This document shows positions 7,615 through 11,949 of a DNA stretch of 12,445 nt, piece by piece. The stretch is from contig JAKAAL010000048.1 in assembly GCA_021802375.1 (NCBI GenBank), positions 1-12,445 on the forward strand, in the 5' to 3' direction. This stretch comes from Bacillota bacterium (GTDB lineage: Bacteria; Bacillota_E; Sulfobacillia; Sulfobacillales; Sulfobacillaceae). The first letter of the stretch is position 1; every line of letters starts with the position of its first letter. The position numbers were made by a program, and so were the translations under genes. The notes under the pieces are model-generated. The model saw only the letters and a list, made by a program, of their open reading frames with translations, was not told where the DNA came from and made no database searches.

Positions 7615-9072
7615 CTAGCGATCTAAGCAGCTATAACACAACTCAAAACTTTTGTTAATTAAAGGAAAGTCTCCCACCGCGTTGCCCGCCACCGCTTTGG
7701 ACAGCAGTGGCCAATTACGGAACGTGCCGGAACGAACATGGTAGCGAATGACCTTCCCGCGATCAACTGCTACGATATGGGCATTAAGTCCATGAGGGGA
7801 TTCAGAAAACGTAGCCGCCTGACCGATAAGATCTGTTGGTGGTTCCCAAAAGGGCAACGCGCTATGAATTTGATACCTCTGCAACACCCATTGCATCAAT
7901 CGCCAAGAAGCCTCAACTTCGTCTAACCGTACCTTGAAGCGCCCCGAGACATCGCCTGACGTTTCGCTGGCATAGTCCACATGCCAACCATGGTAGAGTG
8001 GCATCAGTTGTCGGGCATCAAAAGTCAGCCCCGACGCGCGCGCCACAACGCCCTGACCACCGAATCGCAACGCATCGCTTTGACGCACCATCCCTACTCC
8101 CTTCATCCGGTCTTGAAACCCGTGATGGCCTTGCACCAGTGACCGCCATGGCCGCCACTCACGCTGCAACTGGGTAATCAGGGCTCCCAAAGCCGCGGTG
8201 TCCATAGCCAAAGATTTCCCCGGATGGACGGTATCAAACAACAACCGATGGCCAAATATGACCGCGAGACCGCGCTGCCATCGCTCTTTCATCGTCAACG
8301 CCTTTTGGTTGGCCACCGAAAACCCCACACCGGCAGGTATTTGCGCCAGGTCATTGAGATGGCTTAATATGCGCTCTGATTCCAACAACAGGATTCGTTG
8401 CCACTTGATCTCATCAGGGACTTGATAACCCGCCATCTCCTCCACTGCCATGGCCAAATTAGTCTGGTGGGAGACGGTGTCGGCGCCACAAATCCGGGAG
8501 ATTAAAGGCGCCACGGACCCGATGAGACGTCCTTGCAACTGGCCTTCCACCCCGCGATGGTTTTGAAACAGGTGAAGATCTAAGTGCAAGATGTTTTCCC
8601 CGATGATGCTGAAGACAAAGTGACCTGATTCGATAATTCCCGCATGGGTCGGCCCCACTTTCATAATGGTGACGCCCTCGCCCTCCACCGTCTGTTCTGG
8701 ATTATTGGGTGCCACCTCACGCCATGGTGGTTTTTGCGGTGCGTTCAGGCCTGCCATCGGGTAAAATTCATCCGGCCACCTGGGATTACGCACCAAAGCC
8801 CGTAAATCAGGATGCCCTTGGGGCCGATAGCCAAACACATCGTGAATTTCTCTTTCGTCCCATGCCATTTCCGGCAATTCCACTGTCAACGACGGAAATT
8901 CCAAGCCATGCATATCCCAGTTGTCCTGAACAATCTGCCCACTAGGCATGAGCCAATGAACGGCGATATGGCCTCCGGCAAAAGCCGTCACTCCCAGCAC
9001 ATGCGCTCCCAAATTTTTTCGTCGAACATTGTTGGTTATCCACTCTTTTTTTGTCATCAGCGCCGCAATCAT
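7615..9072 (-). CDS. hyfG: Hydrogenase-4-like large subunit (HyfG/NuoCD-type) with an altered [NiFe] site
   Basis: A 485-residue fusion of a NuoC-like domain (about 1-125; PEMAWDEREIHDVFGYRPQGHPD is characteristic) and a NuoD/hydrogenase large-subunit domain (about 130-485). VGPTHAGIIESGHFVF (about 139-154) and HRGVEG (172-177) are group 4 hydrogenase-type blocks rather than NuoD-type. The N-terminal nickel motif reads R193-I-C195-G-A-D198-T-V-S-H202: the second cysteine of the usual RxCGxCxxxH is aspartate. The C-terminal motif reads E477-L-C479-Y-S-C482-L-D-R485; its DPC has become ELC and the protein ends at the arginine, where hydrogenase proteases normally cut. Three of four metal-ligand cysteines therefore remain. 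It probably belongs to the energy-converting hydrogenase-related (Ehr) group; H2 turnover is doubtful. The ATG overlaps the hyfF stop (ATGA). Confidence 0.9.
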   Translation of the reverse strand: MIAALMTKKEWITNNVRRKNLGAHVLGVTAFAGGHIAVHWLMPSGQIVQDNWDMHGLEFPSLTVELPEMAWDEREIHDVFGYRPQGHPDLRALVRNPRWPDEFYPMAGLNAPQKPPWREVAPNNPEQTVEGEGVTIMKVGPTHAGIIESGHFVFSIIGENILHLDLHLFQNHRGVEGQLQGRLIGSVAPLISRICGADTVSHQTNLAMAVEEMAGYQVPDEIKWQRILLLESERILSHLNDLAQIPAGVGFSVANQKALTMKERWQRGLAVIFGHRLLFDTVHPGKSLAMDTAALGALITQLQREWRPWRSLVQGHHGFQDRMKGVGMVRQSDALRFGGQGVVARASGLTFDARQLMPLYHGWHVDYASETSGDVSGRFKVRLDEVEASWRLMQWVLQRYQIHSALPFWEPPTDLIGQAATFSESPHGLNAHIVAVDRGKVIRYHVRSGTFRNWPLLSKAVAGNAVGDFPLINKSFELCYSCLDR

Positions 9073-10421
9073 GCCATTTCCTCCCCAAAAGCCGCTGTGC
9101 TCGAACTGTCCCCACTCGCTTTGTTGTTTTCATTGCTGCTGTACTGGGAAAAGTTCAGCCCTCCCCAGAGACCACTCAGAAGATGGTACGTTAAGGCGGC
9201 AAACGTCACCAAAAGAGCCAAACTCAGCACGATAATAAGCCACACTTGGTGCGTTTCCCACATGGCATGAAGCATGATCCATTCGCTGTAAGCCAGGCCC
9301 AGAGGTGGTATTCCAGCCAGAGCCAGGATACCTAGAGACCAACTCACCGCCAATCCGGGATGAGTTTTGGCCATGTCAGTAATCTTTTCCAGCCGTTTAC
9401 TGTGGTATACCGCTGATAGATGACCGGAAAGATAAAATAGGGTGGACTTAATGGCCGCATGAAACACCAACTGTAAGAACGCTGCCAATTCTGCCAATGG
9501 GGTACCAAGGCCAAACCCAATGGCCATAATGCCAACCTGCTCAATCGATGAATAGGCCAGAAGTCGTTTGATATCACGCTGAACCAACAAAGCCAAGGAT
9601 CCCACCGCAATCGATAGCACCCCATAAAATACCAATAAATGGGGCCCAGACAGCAACGCTGTCGGAGGCTGCGGCACCGCAGCCACAAACCGTTCGATAG
9701 TGACCAAACAAAGACCCAATAGGGCTCCCGATAAAAGTCCGCTGACAGGAGACGGTGCCTCCGAATGCGCATCCGGCAGCCAGGTGTGAAACGGCACCAA
9801 CCCGACTTTGGTGCCAATCCCGCTCACAATAAAGATGGTCGCAACCCCGCGCACAATGGGGGCAATGGCATGGTAATGGCGAGAGAGGTTGCTATAAGCC
9901 AAGGTTTCCCAGCCTAATCCTTGAAATCTTAGTCCGGCGTATACAAAAATGATCCCGATCAATGCCAAGGCTAACCCCACTGATGCAATGACGATATACT
10001 TCCAAGCCGCCTCCAGTGCCCGCCGGTTTCCCATTTCCACCACCAAAGCCCCGGACGCCAGGGTAGAAAACTCAATGGCCACCCACGACACCATTAAATT
10101 TTCGGCCAGCACAATCGCAGCTAATGCTCCCCAAAACAAGGCCCACCAAATATAGTAACGTTCTAGGCGGATGCCTCGATGTTCCCTCAAAAACCAGATG
10201 CTATCCCAGGCACTGGTGGTGGCCAATACGGTGACCACCAACAATAAAATGTCTTGCCAATCGCCGTGGAAAACCTGAGAATACGTAGCCACTGCCGTCA
10301 CCACCAGCACCATCGTTACCCAAAGCGCAATGACCAAAGCGATTTTGCGAGCCCTCAACCACACCCCCAATAAAGCCAAAACAATCACGATCAAGGGTCC
10401 CAGTCCATATTGGATACTCAT
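9069..10421 (-). CDS. hyfF: Hydrogenase-4 antiporter-like membrane subunit (HyfF family)
   Basis: A 450-residue polytopic membrane protein of the proton_antipo_M family (NuoL/M/N, MrpA/D, HyfB/D/F) predicted to translocate H+ or Na+. The key charged residues of antiporter subunits are visible: E117 in VSWVAIEFSTLAS, K141 following it, K205 in GTKVGLVPFHTWLPDAHSEA (with H212 and E221) and K325 in FHAAIKSTLFYLSG. The YSSIEQVGIMA block (290-300) is also typical. About 12-14 hydrophobic segments are apparent. It is shorter than E. coli HyfF (526) and ends in a hydrophilic Ser/Asn-rich tail (about 424-450). It starts 3 nt after hyfE with AGGGGG as ribosome binding site and overlaps hyfG by ATGA. 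Confidence 0.9.
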   Translation of the reverse strand: MSIQYGLGPLIVIVLALLGVWLRARKIALVIALWVTMVLVVTAVATYSQVFHGDWQDILLLVVTVLATTSAWDSIWFLREHRGIRLERYYIWWALFWGALAAIVLAENLMVSWVAIEFSTLASGALVVEMGNRRALEAAWKYIVIASVGLALALIGIIFVYAGLRFQGLGWETLAYSNLSRHYHAIAPIVRGVATIFIVSGIGTKVGLVPFHTWLPDAHSEAPSPVSGLLSGALLGLCLVTIERFVAAVPQPPTALLSGPHLLVFYGVLSIAVGSLALLVQRDIKRLLAYSSIEQVGIMAIGFGLGTPLAELAAFLQLVFHAAIKSTLFYLSGHLSAVYHSKRLEKITDMAKTHPGLAVSWSLGILALAGIPPLGLAYSEWIMLHAMWETHQVWLIIVLSLALLVTFAALTYHLLSGLWGGLNFSQYSSNENNKASGDSSSTAAFGEEMA

Positions 10422-10424
10422 TTT

Positions 10425-11048
10425 TTACCCCCTTAACCGTCGTAGTGCTACAACATCAATCGTCTTAAACTGACGATGGATGCGGTGACTCATCCAGACC
10501 AAAATAGCGGCAGCTACCAACAAATCCACCAGCATCCCAAATTCCATGAAGGTGGGTAAAGCGCCTGCCACTGACGCAGCTAGCACCACCAGACCATTTT
10601 CAATCCCAACCAGAGCGCCTACCTGAGACATAACATGGCGACGGCTAACAATCATTAACAGACCCAAATGAACGCTTGCCAATCCGTAAAAGAACAGGGT
10701 GCGATGCAAAATAATGCCGGTTGGTGTCAACAATTCGATGACATGTCCCACAGCCAGGAGCAATCCTGCGGCAACAGGATAGGCCCAAAACGGCAACGGC
10801 TGATCTTGTCGAAATTCTGTAGGCCATCGAGAGATAACACGGAACATGGATCCTGGAATCAATGCGACCTTGATGGCTAACGTAGCGGCCATGATGGCCA
10901 CCACGACCAAAGACAACCGCTCTGTAGAACCCACCATAATGGTCAGCGCCATGCCCTCCATAGCCAAAAACAATAATCCATAAACCATATTCCGAGACCA
11001 CAATAGTCCCACTGCCCCGGCAAATACCAAAAATCCGGCGACTGCCAT
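10425..11048 (-). CDS. hyfE: Hydrogenase-4 membrane subunit E (HyfE, NuoK-related)
   Basis: A 207-residue, very hydrophobic protein close in length to E. coli HyfE (216). About six to seven membrane segments are visible. The C-terminal half has a NuoK/MrpC-like pattern with intramembrane acidic residue E150 in GIENGLVVLAAS, and E31 lies in LAMEGMALTI. A positively charged tail (HRIHRQFKTIDVVALRRLRG) is likely cytoplasmic. HyfE-type subunits link the antiporter modules in hydrogenase-4-like complexes; the exact role is not known. The start at 11048 is 1 nt after the hyfC stop, with GGGAGG inside the hyfC end as probable binding site, and hyfF starts 3 nt after its stop. Confidence 0.87.
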   Translation of the reverse strand: MAVAGFLVFAGAVGLLWSRNMVYGLLFLAMEGMALTIMVGSTERLSLVVVAIMAATLAIKVALIPGSMFRVISRWPTEFRQDQPLPFWAYPVAAGLLLAVGHVIELLTPTGIILHRTLFFYGLASVHLGLLMIVSRRHVMSQVGALVGIENGLVVLAASVAGALPTFMEFGMLVDLLVAAAILVWMSHRIHRQFKTIDVVALRRLRG

Positions 11049-11049
11049 C

Positions 11050-11949
11050 TTAGTTGAGCCCTCCCGTCATCATCAGATAAAAGGCGAGAAGCCCTAAACC
11101 CGAGGCCATCGCCAAATACGTAGGTATTTGAAAATATCGTAGCTTGGCAAACCGACTTTCAATGCCGCCCACTATCGCCGCGGTAACCATAATTTCGCTG
11201 AGGTGAAGCACTGCGGTAATCCATGGAGACTCCAATGACGGGGACAGCCACACCCAACCCAGGCCCAGCATTGCCGTATATTTAACCGCTATGGCCGCTT
11301 GATTTTCCGCCAATAGTCGCCCGTTATATTCCAGTACCGTAGCCTCATGCATCATCGTCAATTCCAAGTGGGTATCCACATTGTCAATCGGCAGCCGCCC
11401 CAGTTCCGCCAACATCACCAAGCCATAACTGACCGCCGCCATTCCCCATGGCAACAGCGAAAGATGACCCACCACCGTGCTAATTGTCGTACGCCCGGAG
11501 ACAGCCCATAGCACGCCAAAAGCAGCAAACAGCGCTGGCTCAATTCCTGCCCCCAAAGTCGTGATCCGACTAGATCCCAACCCGCCAAAGGTACCCGCGC
11601 TGTCTAATCCTGCCAATCCGACCCAAAATCGTTCGAGTGCCAACAAGAAGAACAAGGTCAACAAATCATGGGGCCACGGCGTAGGTACCCGCCCCGCCCA
11701 AGGAATGGTCGCAGCCACCAGTACCATCGCGGCTAGGCTAATGCTGGGCGCGACCCGAAATATCCACGAGCTGTATTCGGGCACTGTGGTTTCTTTTCCC
11801 CAAGTCTTGGCTAATACCCAATATCCCCACCATAAACTCGGCCCGCGCCGACCTTGCAACCGCGCTTTGACAATTTGCGTTATTCCTAAAACCAGTGGGG
11901 CCATCATGATGACCACCACCACGGAAATCCCCTGTACGCCCCACAACAC
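11050..11949 (-). CDS. hyfC: Hydrogenase-4 membrane subunit C (HyfC, NuoH-like)
   Basis: A 299-residue NuoH/HyfC/HycD-family protein that docks the HyfG-HyfI module onto the membrane arm; E. coli HyfC is 315. Diagnostic motifs are KARLQGRRGPSLWW (28-41), GLGSSR (123-128), the acidic loop AELGRLPIDNVDTHLELTMM (181-200) followed by HEATVLEYNG, and ESRFAKLRYFQIP (264-276). Around eight membrane helices are present. The acidic loop residues are those proposed to couple redox chemistry with ion movement in complex I. The likely start is the GTG at 11949, 24 nt after the hyfB stop, with a GGGGGG stretch about 9 nt upstream; TTG at the next codon is an alternative. Confidence 0.9.
   Translation of the reverse strand: MLWGVQGISVVVVIMMAPLVLGITQIVKARLQGRRGPSLWWGYWVLAKTWGKETTVPEYSSWIFRVAPSISLAAMVLVAATIPWAGRVPTPWPHDLLTLFFLLALERFWVGLAGLDSAGTFGGLGSSRITTLGAGIEPALFAAFGVLWAVSGRTTISTVVGHLSLLPWGMAAVSYGLVMLAELGRLPIDNVDTHLELTMMHEATVLEYNGRLLAENQAAIAVKYTAMLGLGWVWLSPSLESPWITAVLHLSEIMVTAAIVGGIESRFAKLRYFQIPTYLAMASGLGLLAFYLMMTGGLN

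Follow-up and report, generated by a model that had tools for sequence, protein, structure and literature searches.

Sulfobacillus-like acidophiles carry a tail-less, group 4f-related hydrogenase-like complex with a fixed three-cysteine-plus-aspartate pocket that probably no longer acts on hydrogen

Can a large subunit that retains three of the four cysteines of a [NiFe] hydrogenase, with an aspartate in place of the fourth, still serve a hydrogenase? This question is raised by a hyfG-like gene, a NuoC-NuoD fusion, on contig JAKAAL010000048.1 of a Bacillota bacterium (assembly GCA_021802375.1, family Sulfobacillaceae), whose 12,445 nucleotides constitute the window analyzed here and whose host we infer to be a Sulfobacillus-like acidophile. 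Judging from sequence comparisons, we favor, at a probability of roughly 0.55, the reading that the six-subunit complex to which the protein belongs (HyfB, HyfC, HyfE, HyfF, HyfG, and HyfI) derives from a tail-less [NiFe] hydrogenase of the group 4f type and is a hydrogenase no longer. The large subunit would then be of the energy-converting hydrogenase-related (Ehr) type, and a standard H2-evolving enzyme appears very unlikely. As a more specific and tentative proposal, a selected Cys3Asp metal center might catalyze a non-hydrogen reaction coupled to protons, which would place it between [NiFe] hydrogenases and complex I as a third type of active site, found in acidophiles that mostly lack the machinery for NiFe-cofactor maturation.

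The reading frame of hyfG lies on the minus strand, the plus strand across the same interval containing many stops. Its product matches PF00346 (89.4 bits) and PF00329 (35.2 bits) and stays slightly below the cutoff for PF00374 (25.6 versus 25.8 bits). The only three cysteines of the protein are located in an N-terminal motif, R193-I-C195-G-A-D198, and at the C-terminal end, E477-L478-C479-Y-S-C482-L-D-R485-stop. When aligned with HycE from E. coli, C195, C479, and C482 correspond to C241, C531, and C534, D198 takes the place of C244, E477-L478 that of D529-P530, and R485 coincides with R537. The alignment thus bears out what a first-pass annotation of this DNA had described: three of the four [NiFe] cysteines, Glu-Leu instead of Asp-Pro, and a stop at R485 without a maturation tail. 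R537 is presumably the site of endopeptidase cleavage in HycE, and HyfG ends at the equivalent position. In canonical enzymes, the cysteine that D198 replaces is a bridging ligand between nickel and iron.

The first-pass annotation had left it to homologs to tell whether the C-x-x-D state is shared, and it is. Among the best 120 of 2336 HyfG homologs, the closest 60 (48 to 100% identical to the window protein, with a lowest pairwise identity of 46%) all combine C-x-x-D with C-x-x-C, while the next 60 (38 to 45% identity) all feature C-x-x-C in both motifs. Position 198 is accordingly an aspartate in 60/60 clade proteins and a cysteine in 179/179 other listed homologs, 119 of which come from a second search (best 120 of 7732). 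Invariance extends to 90 of the 485 columns among the 60 proteins, and all four pocket columns would be invariant by chance with a p of about 0.001. The same four residues are found in all 16 carrier genomes, where each codon varies synonymously: 8 TGT and 8 TGC for C195, 9 GAT and 7 GAC for D198, 12 TGT and 4 TGC for C479, and 11 TGT and 5 TGC for C482. Likewise, TAA, TAG, and TGA each occur as the stop codon at the fixed end of the protein. Because codons and stops vary in this silent manner, the pattern points to purifying selection on the pocket residues and on the protein end. Sequencing error or recent decay can be ruled out, since the motif is fixed in 60 homologs and 16 genomes. Further residues set the clade apart: H167 is present in 60/60 of its members and in 0/179 four-cysteine relatives, and Q244, W265, F379, and H445 (60/60 each) and H427 (59/60) are rare in those relatives. 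One C-x-x-D protein, P0059, carries the source label of an Acidimicrobiaceae metagenome-assembled genome, reflecting either gene transfer or mis-binning, and a scan of genome contigs with the HyfG protein returned one distant Bacteroidales locus.

Where does this state come from? In a quick IQ-TREE phylogeny of 93 large subunits, with the Shimodaira-Hasegawa-like approximate likelihood ratio test (SH-aLRT) as its only support measure, the 23 C-x-x-D proteins form one clade (support of 100) that is nested in four-cysteine tail-less proteins, nearest to P0080 and P0095 (89) and then to P0061, P0065, and P0072 (98). At the level of this tree, the C-x-x-D state is shown to have a single origin, as an event of its own within group-4f-like (Ehf) four-cysteine proteins. 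The source record of one Desulfosporosinus homolog in the nesting group names the Ehf-type group 4f, for which EhfE from D. orientis is the HydDB reference (PMC7811984). A position inside active H2-evolving clades was named in the first-pass annotation as one result that would speak against its interpretation. Half of this applies: the clade does fall within four-cysteine group-4f-like proteins, themselves putative H2-evolving enzymes. With group 4f systems such as Desulfosporosinus EhfE, the locus shares the NuoCD fusion, a tail-less FELC-x-x-C end, and the gene order B-C-E-F-G-I, which holds for the window and 10/10 related loci, although the use of gene order as a 4f criterion is our own comparison. 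The differences are the intact N-terminal CxxC of group 4f and a ferredoxin-type N-terminal extension of about 100 residues on HyfI, found in 8/10 of the related loci (6 of those with the full CxxCxxCxxxC) and absent here. These 10 loci comprise nine with four cysteines and one variant, L139 from genome G270. The large subunit of G270 (L117/L139) represents a different three-cysteine state, with an N-terminal CGVC and a C-terminal FELF-x-x-C, and no HypD match was found in that genome.

Cysteines appear to have been lost on more than one occasion in the family, since the two sampled groups of zero-cysteine (Ehr) proteins fall elsewhere on the tree than the C-x-x-D clade. One group consists of paralogs in the taxonomic order of the window, and G001, the genome nearest to the window, holds two of them (L040 and L041); the other is the S-G-D-E/N-L-S-Y-A-G type of the wider phylum. 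For the 34 matches in the phylum, loci were obtained from 30, and G089, G108, G131, and G193 were left unclassified. Six plasmid loci, which are absent from the tree, were also compared: the four positions are devoid of cysteine in those from Rhodococcus, Rhizobium, Cupriavidus, Methylocalor, and Meiothermus, and the Rhodovastum locus encodes a regular four-cysteine, tailed protein of the HycE type.

The nesting within four-cysteine proteins changes which features bear on function. Glu-Leu and the missing tail had both been taken as signs of a non-hydrogenase in the first-pass annotation, an argument that does not survive the comparison with four-cysteine relatives: these have the glutamate in 177/179 and the leucine in 178/179 cases, the tail is missing in all 120 listed HyfG homologs and in the 119 second-search proteins, and HypD is present in 16/17 genomes with tail-less four-cysteine proteins. 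Because four-cysteine and mostly HypD-positive relatives have both features, these are uninformative on function, and it is the change from cysteine to aspartate that argues against a hydrogenase.

A second line of evidence is provided by cofactor maturation. Fe(CN)2CO is assembled on HypD as a scaffold (PMC12134894), and we sought the HypD gene in 61 relatives plus another 33 genomes. It was detected in only 5/16 C-x-x-D carriers, the same five that hold HypF above the cutoff; in the other 11/16, neither HypD nor over-cutoff HypF was found. This includes G001, which is 93% complete and encodes a 99% identical protein. In contrast, 20/21 four-cysteine genomes hold HypD (16/17 tail-less and 4/4 with a tail), a set in which the four tailed proteins represent other group 4 kinds and some genomes are near-duplicates (G065/G112 and G072/G158). 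The difference is significant if relatedness is ignored (Fisher p of 5e-5). In each of the five HypD-bearing carriers, HypD is located within about 6 kb of the gene for another NiFe hydrogenase large subunit (frames of 549 to 608 residues). Among zero-cysteine forms on the tree, HypD accompanies 6/10 in one group and 4/14 in the other. HypA exceeded its cutoff in 8 of the 17 genomes tested, a set of eight in which G017 and G031 are the sole representatives of the 11 HypD-negative carriers. Together with the presence of C-x-x-D plus C-x-x-C throughout the clade, the missing maturation genes favor the suggestion of the first-pass annotation that the large subunit is of the Ehr type rather than a standard H2-evolving one.

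Could the complex nevertheless be a hydrogenase with a modified NiFe site, in which aspartate stands in for a bridging cysteine? HyfG retains three ligands along with E148 and R193, HyfI has a proximal cluster of the hydrogenase type, and the proteins of the parent clade feature four cysteines and mostly come from HypD-positive genomes. Moreover, C241 of HycE, the counterpart of the retained C195, is needed for interaction with HypC (PMC12134894). On the other hand, a four-cysteine site made with HypA to HypF is described for all [NiFe] hydrogenases in the same source, and 11/16 carriers lack HypD and over-cutoff HypF, 9 of which also have no PF00374 match of >32 bits, such matches as they do have being of the Ehr or NuoD type. 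We therefore regard a modified hydrogenase as improbable.

How does the clade relate to known Ehr complexes? Ehr has been defined as a relative of group 4 without conserved Ni- and Fe-coordinating residues (PMC6349859), and studies on Ehr from other phyla describe metal-binding residues or motifs as absent (PMC6349859, PMC7304191, and PMC10284858). The subunits are alike and the metal-ligand set is incomplete in both cases, but zero-cysteine Ehr has no cysteine at the four positions, whereas three cysteines and an aspartate are fixed here. The protein has an incomplete ligand set but keeps three of the four ligands, and on our quick tree it groups with four-cysteine proteins rather than with the Ehr sampled. 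For Sulfobacillus itself, Justice et al. reported in 2014 group 4 large subunits without normal binding motifs, encoded in six syntenic genes and resembling Ehr complexes of unknown function (PMC4378227). We found no description of a fixed three-cysteine-plus-aspartate state in the literature searched, most subscription papers lying outside it.

The kinship with Ehr lends weight to what we consider the main rival explanation, possible though somewhat doubtful, namely, a complex-I-like enzyme in which the pocket is inert, a structural zinc site or a packing remnant, and a quinone-like substrate reacts at the proximal cluster. Zero-cysteine Ehr complexes with a like operon occur widely, which shows that the family can do without the pocket; the cysteines retained in the membrane-bound sulfane reductase (MBS) from P. 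furiosus are not catalytic (PMC7684303); and no ferredoxin-type gene was seen in the hyf run of the window or the carrier loci. Two observations speak against this explanation. First, the quinone residues of complex I are absent, as inferred from alignments: H38 of Nqo4 corresponds to I147 in 60/60 proteins, and Y87 corresponds to a glycine (33) or an alanine (27) at position 196. Second, the four pocket residues are invariant here, while none of the four survives in the zero-cysteine paralogs that these genomes also encode, which fits selection retaining the pocket in this clade.

The remaining explanations assign the pocket another chemistry, and we hold them, like the modified hydrogenase, to be less likely than an inert remnant. 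In one of them, the pocket is an Fe-S cluster with Cys3Asp ligation that serves as an additional relay on the way from the proximal cluster to the substrate. Such ligation of a [4Fe-4S] cluster has precedents in the ferredoxin of P. furiosus and in dark-operative protochlorophyllide reductase. Against it, the thiolates of the ancestral site are spaced to suit a small bimetallic center rather than a cube, and no further sequence change indicative of a cluster was recognized; we regard this explanation as improbable. Even less credible is a sulfane reductase resembling MBS, as had been suggested in the first-pass annotation. Sulfobacillus species are sulfur oxidizers with polysulfide chemistry (PMC4378227), and MBS is likewise a complex of the proton pump type that has lost some of the four cysteines (PMC7684303). 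According to the latter source, however, its proximal cluster is altered, with only three cysteine ligands and a motif that falls three residues short of its counterpart in the membrane-bound hydrogenase (MBH), and MBS has no equivalent of the proton-transfer glutamate of MBH, E21 in MbhL. In our clade, HyfI retains its CxxC spacing and all four proximal-cluster cysteines, and E148, equated with E21 by alignment, is invariant in 60/60 homologs. The same glutamate and cluster type are shared with formate hydrogenlyase and hydrogenases 3 and 4 (HycE and HyfG of group 4a); these differ from the complex studied here by four cysteines, Asp-Pro, a 32-residue tail after R537, and extra Fe-S subunits, and formate hydrogenlyase by a formate dehydrogenase partner (PMC9474812).

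If the complex is indeed a former group 4f hydrogenase, its history and mode of action might be as follows. In the ancestor of the clade, the N-terminal motif would have exchanged its second cysteine for aspartate, and most of the sampled lineages would now be without the genes for making Fe(CN)2CO. As the operon revealed no ferredoxin-type subunit, the electron donor is likely soluble, with electrons entering at the [4Fe-4S] cluster of HyfI; alternatively, they might leave through this cluster if an acidophile's large pH gradient drives the pump in reverse. The Cys3Asp set (C195, D198, C479, and C482) would probably hold a single simple metal ion (zinc, iron, or nickel without CN and CO), and a substrate other than hydrogen might react, or be positioned, in or beside the old pocket. 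HyfB, HyfC, and HyfF would couple the redox step, in either direction, to proton movement. R193, next to the pocket motif, is kept in the clade, and E117, K205, K285, and K325 of HyfF are conserved wherever hyfF was called among the carriers (14/14) and are the same in the E. coli protein. Both by sequence (182 bits) and by fold (template modeling score of 0.84), HyfG has its best match in the PDB in HycE of formate hydrogenlyase (7z0s_E), the fold being that of an AlphaFold model (mean predicted local distance difference test [pLDDT] score, 87.4; predicted template modeling score, 0.90).

Several observations weigh against this interpretation. The retained cysteines may be structural or a relic, as the two cysteines kept in MBS can be mutated without loss of polysulfide reduction (PMC7684303). 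The HypD comparison is tied to descent, and the tree gives only 1 to 3 independent pairs, too few for a phylogenetically independent test. Genome G185 has a four-cysteine large subunit and yet no HypD match. Two HypD-less carriers, G017 and G031, hold a four-cysteine sulfhydrogenase-like hydrogenase together with over-cutoff HypA, and HypB (TIGR00073) was confirmed in G031, with a near-identical gene in G017; neither HypD nor over-cutoff HypF was found in either genome despite this intact hydrogenase. Since these two carry a four-cysteine enzyme, the absence of HypD from an assembly is no proof, and the missing HypD represents strong but not absolute evidence. Finally, the structural model is cofactor free, and its pocket segments (139 to 155 and 480 to 485) have pLDDT values of <50. 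The large subunit of G185, a one-contig genome, (L119 and L138) also features a histidine in place of the conserved R193.

The step from membrane hydrogenases to complex I involved the loss of all four cysteines, and this clade has kept an intermediate state, mostly in genomes without the gene for the NiFe-cofactor scaffold and alongside paralogs that lack all four. The fate of the old hydrogenase pocket after loss of its cofactor might thereby become accessible in a cultivable environmental organism. Source databases label some C-x-x-D proteins as Ni,Fe-hydrogenase III or formate hydrogenlyase subunit 5, which should serve as a warning to annotators.

TABLE 1 Features of the hyf run in the window, codons of the HyfG pocket, and the hydrogenase loci of two HypD-less carriers
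Feature	Position	Strand	Remarks
hyfI-like small subunit, 142 residues	7172..7600	minus	PF01058; no ferredoxin domain
hyfG-like large subunit (NuoC-NuoD fusion), 485 residues	7615..9072	minus	Open reading frame; start 9072, stop 7617-7615
R485 and stop	7615..7620	minus	Tail absent in 120/120 listed homologs
C482 codon, second Cys of C-terminal motif (HycE C534)	7627..7629	minus	60/60
C479 codon, first Cys of C-terminal motif (HycE C531)	7636..7638	minus	60/60
D198 codon, replaces second Cys of N-terminal motif (HycE C244)	8479..8481	minus	D in 60/60 clade homologs
C195 codon, first Cys of N-terminal motif (HycE C241)	8488..8490	minus	C in 60/60 homologs
E148 codon, proton-transfer Glu equivalent (MbhL E21, HycE E193)	8629..8631	minus	60/60
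hyfF-like antiporter-type subunit	9069..10421	minus	PF00361; 4-base overlap with hyfG
hyfE-like membrane subunit	10425..11048	minus	NF008556, 55.5 bits, below cutoff of 136
hyfC-like (NuoH-type) membrane anchor	11050..11949	minus	PF00146
hyfB-like subunit, C-terminal 156 residues	11974..12444	minus	NF005086, 65.1 bits, partial; remainder past window end
Four-cysteine sulfhydrogenase-like hydrogenase	L150, 8714 on (G031); L151, 6829 on (G017)		HypA/HypB nearby

In the window, hyfG comes fifth in a run of minus-strand genes, hyfB-hyfC-hyfE-hyfF-hyfG-hyfI (Table 1), in which no formate dehydrogenase gene was seen, either here or in the carrier loci. G001, which has 91% of the window's sampled words in common with it, provides the complete run: an ArsR-type gene (108 residues, PF01022), hyfB (628 residues), hyfC, hyfE, hyfF, hyfG, and hyfI. 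The called hyf genes follow the same order throughout the 16 carriers, with all six called in 8/16 and one to three missed in the others, and a homolog of the ArsR-type gene was called beside hyfB in 14/16. An ArsR-type gene also precedes the zero-cysteine Ehr operon on the Meiothermus plasmid (L149, 2491-2829), 1.2 kb before it, while the Rhizobium operon has another kind of helix-turn-helix gene; the small subunit of the Meiothermus operon has lost its cluster cysteines. A mycobacterial locus presumably combines an ArsR gene with a similar gene set as well.

The proximal [4Fe-4S] cysteines of HyfI (C26, C29, C93, and C123) are present in 16/16 carriers by six-frame reading and in 120/120 listed homologs (best 120 of 7997). 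An additional cysteine, C97 (GDCAAGCG; codon 7312-7310), four residues past a proximal-cluster cysteine, is found in 14/16 carriers and is missing from all 10 related loci used for comparison. We considered it as a clade-specific change in the partner subunit and rejected this, because a second HyfI family of about 160 to 190 residues has the same cysteine. Downstream of hyfI, by 141 bases and on the same strand, lie glpA (7030-5588), glpB (5642-4449), and glpC (4459-3311), encoding an anaerobic glycerol-3-phosphate dehydrogenase; they were discarded as a conserved partner, adjoining the operon in the window, G001, G004, and G005, all of one genus, but in no other carrier locus examined. The two zero-cysteine loci of G001 are further hydrogenase-related operons, and the small subunit of L040 bears a partial ferredoxin-type motif in an N-terminal stretch.

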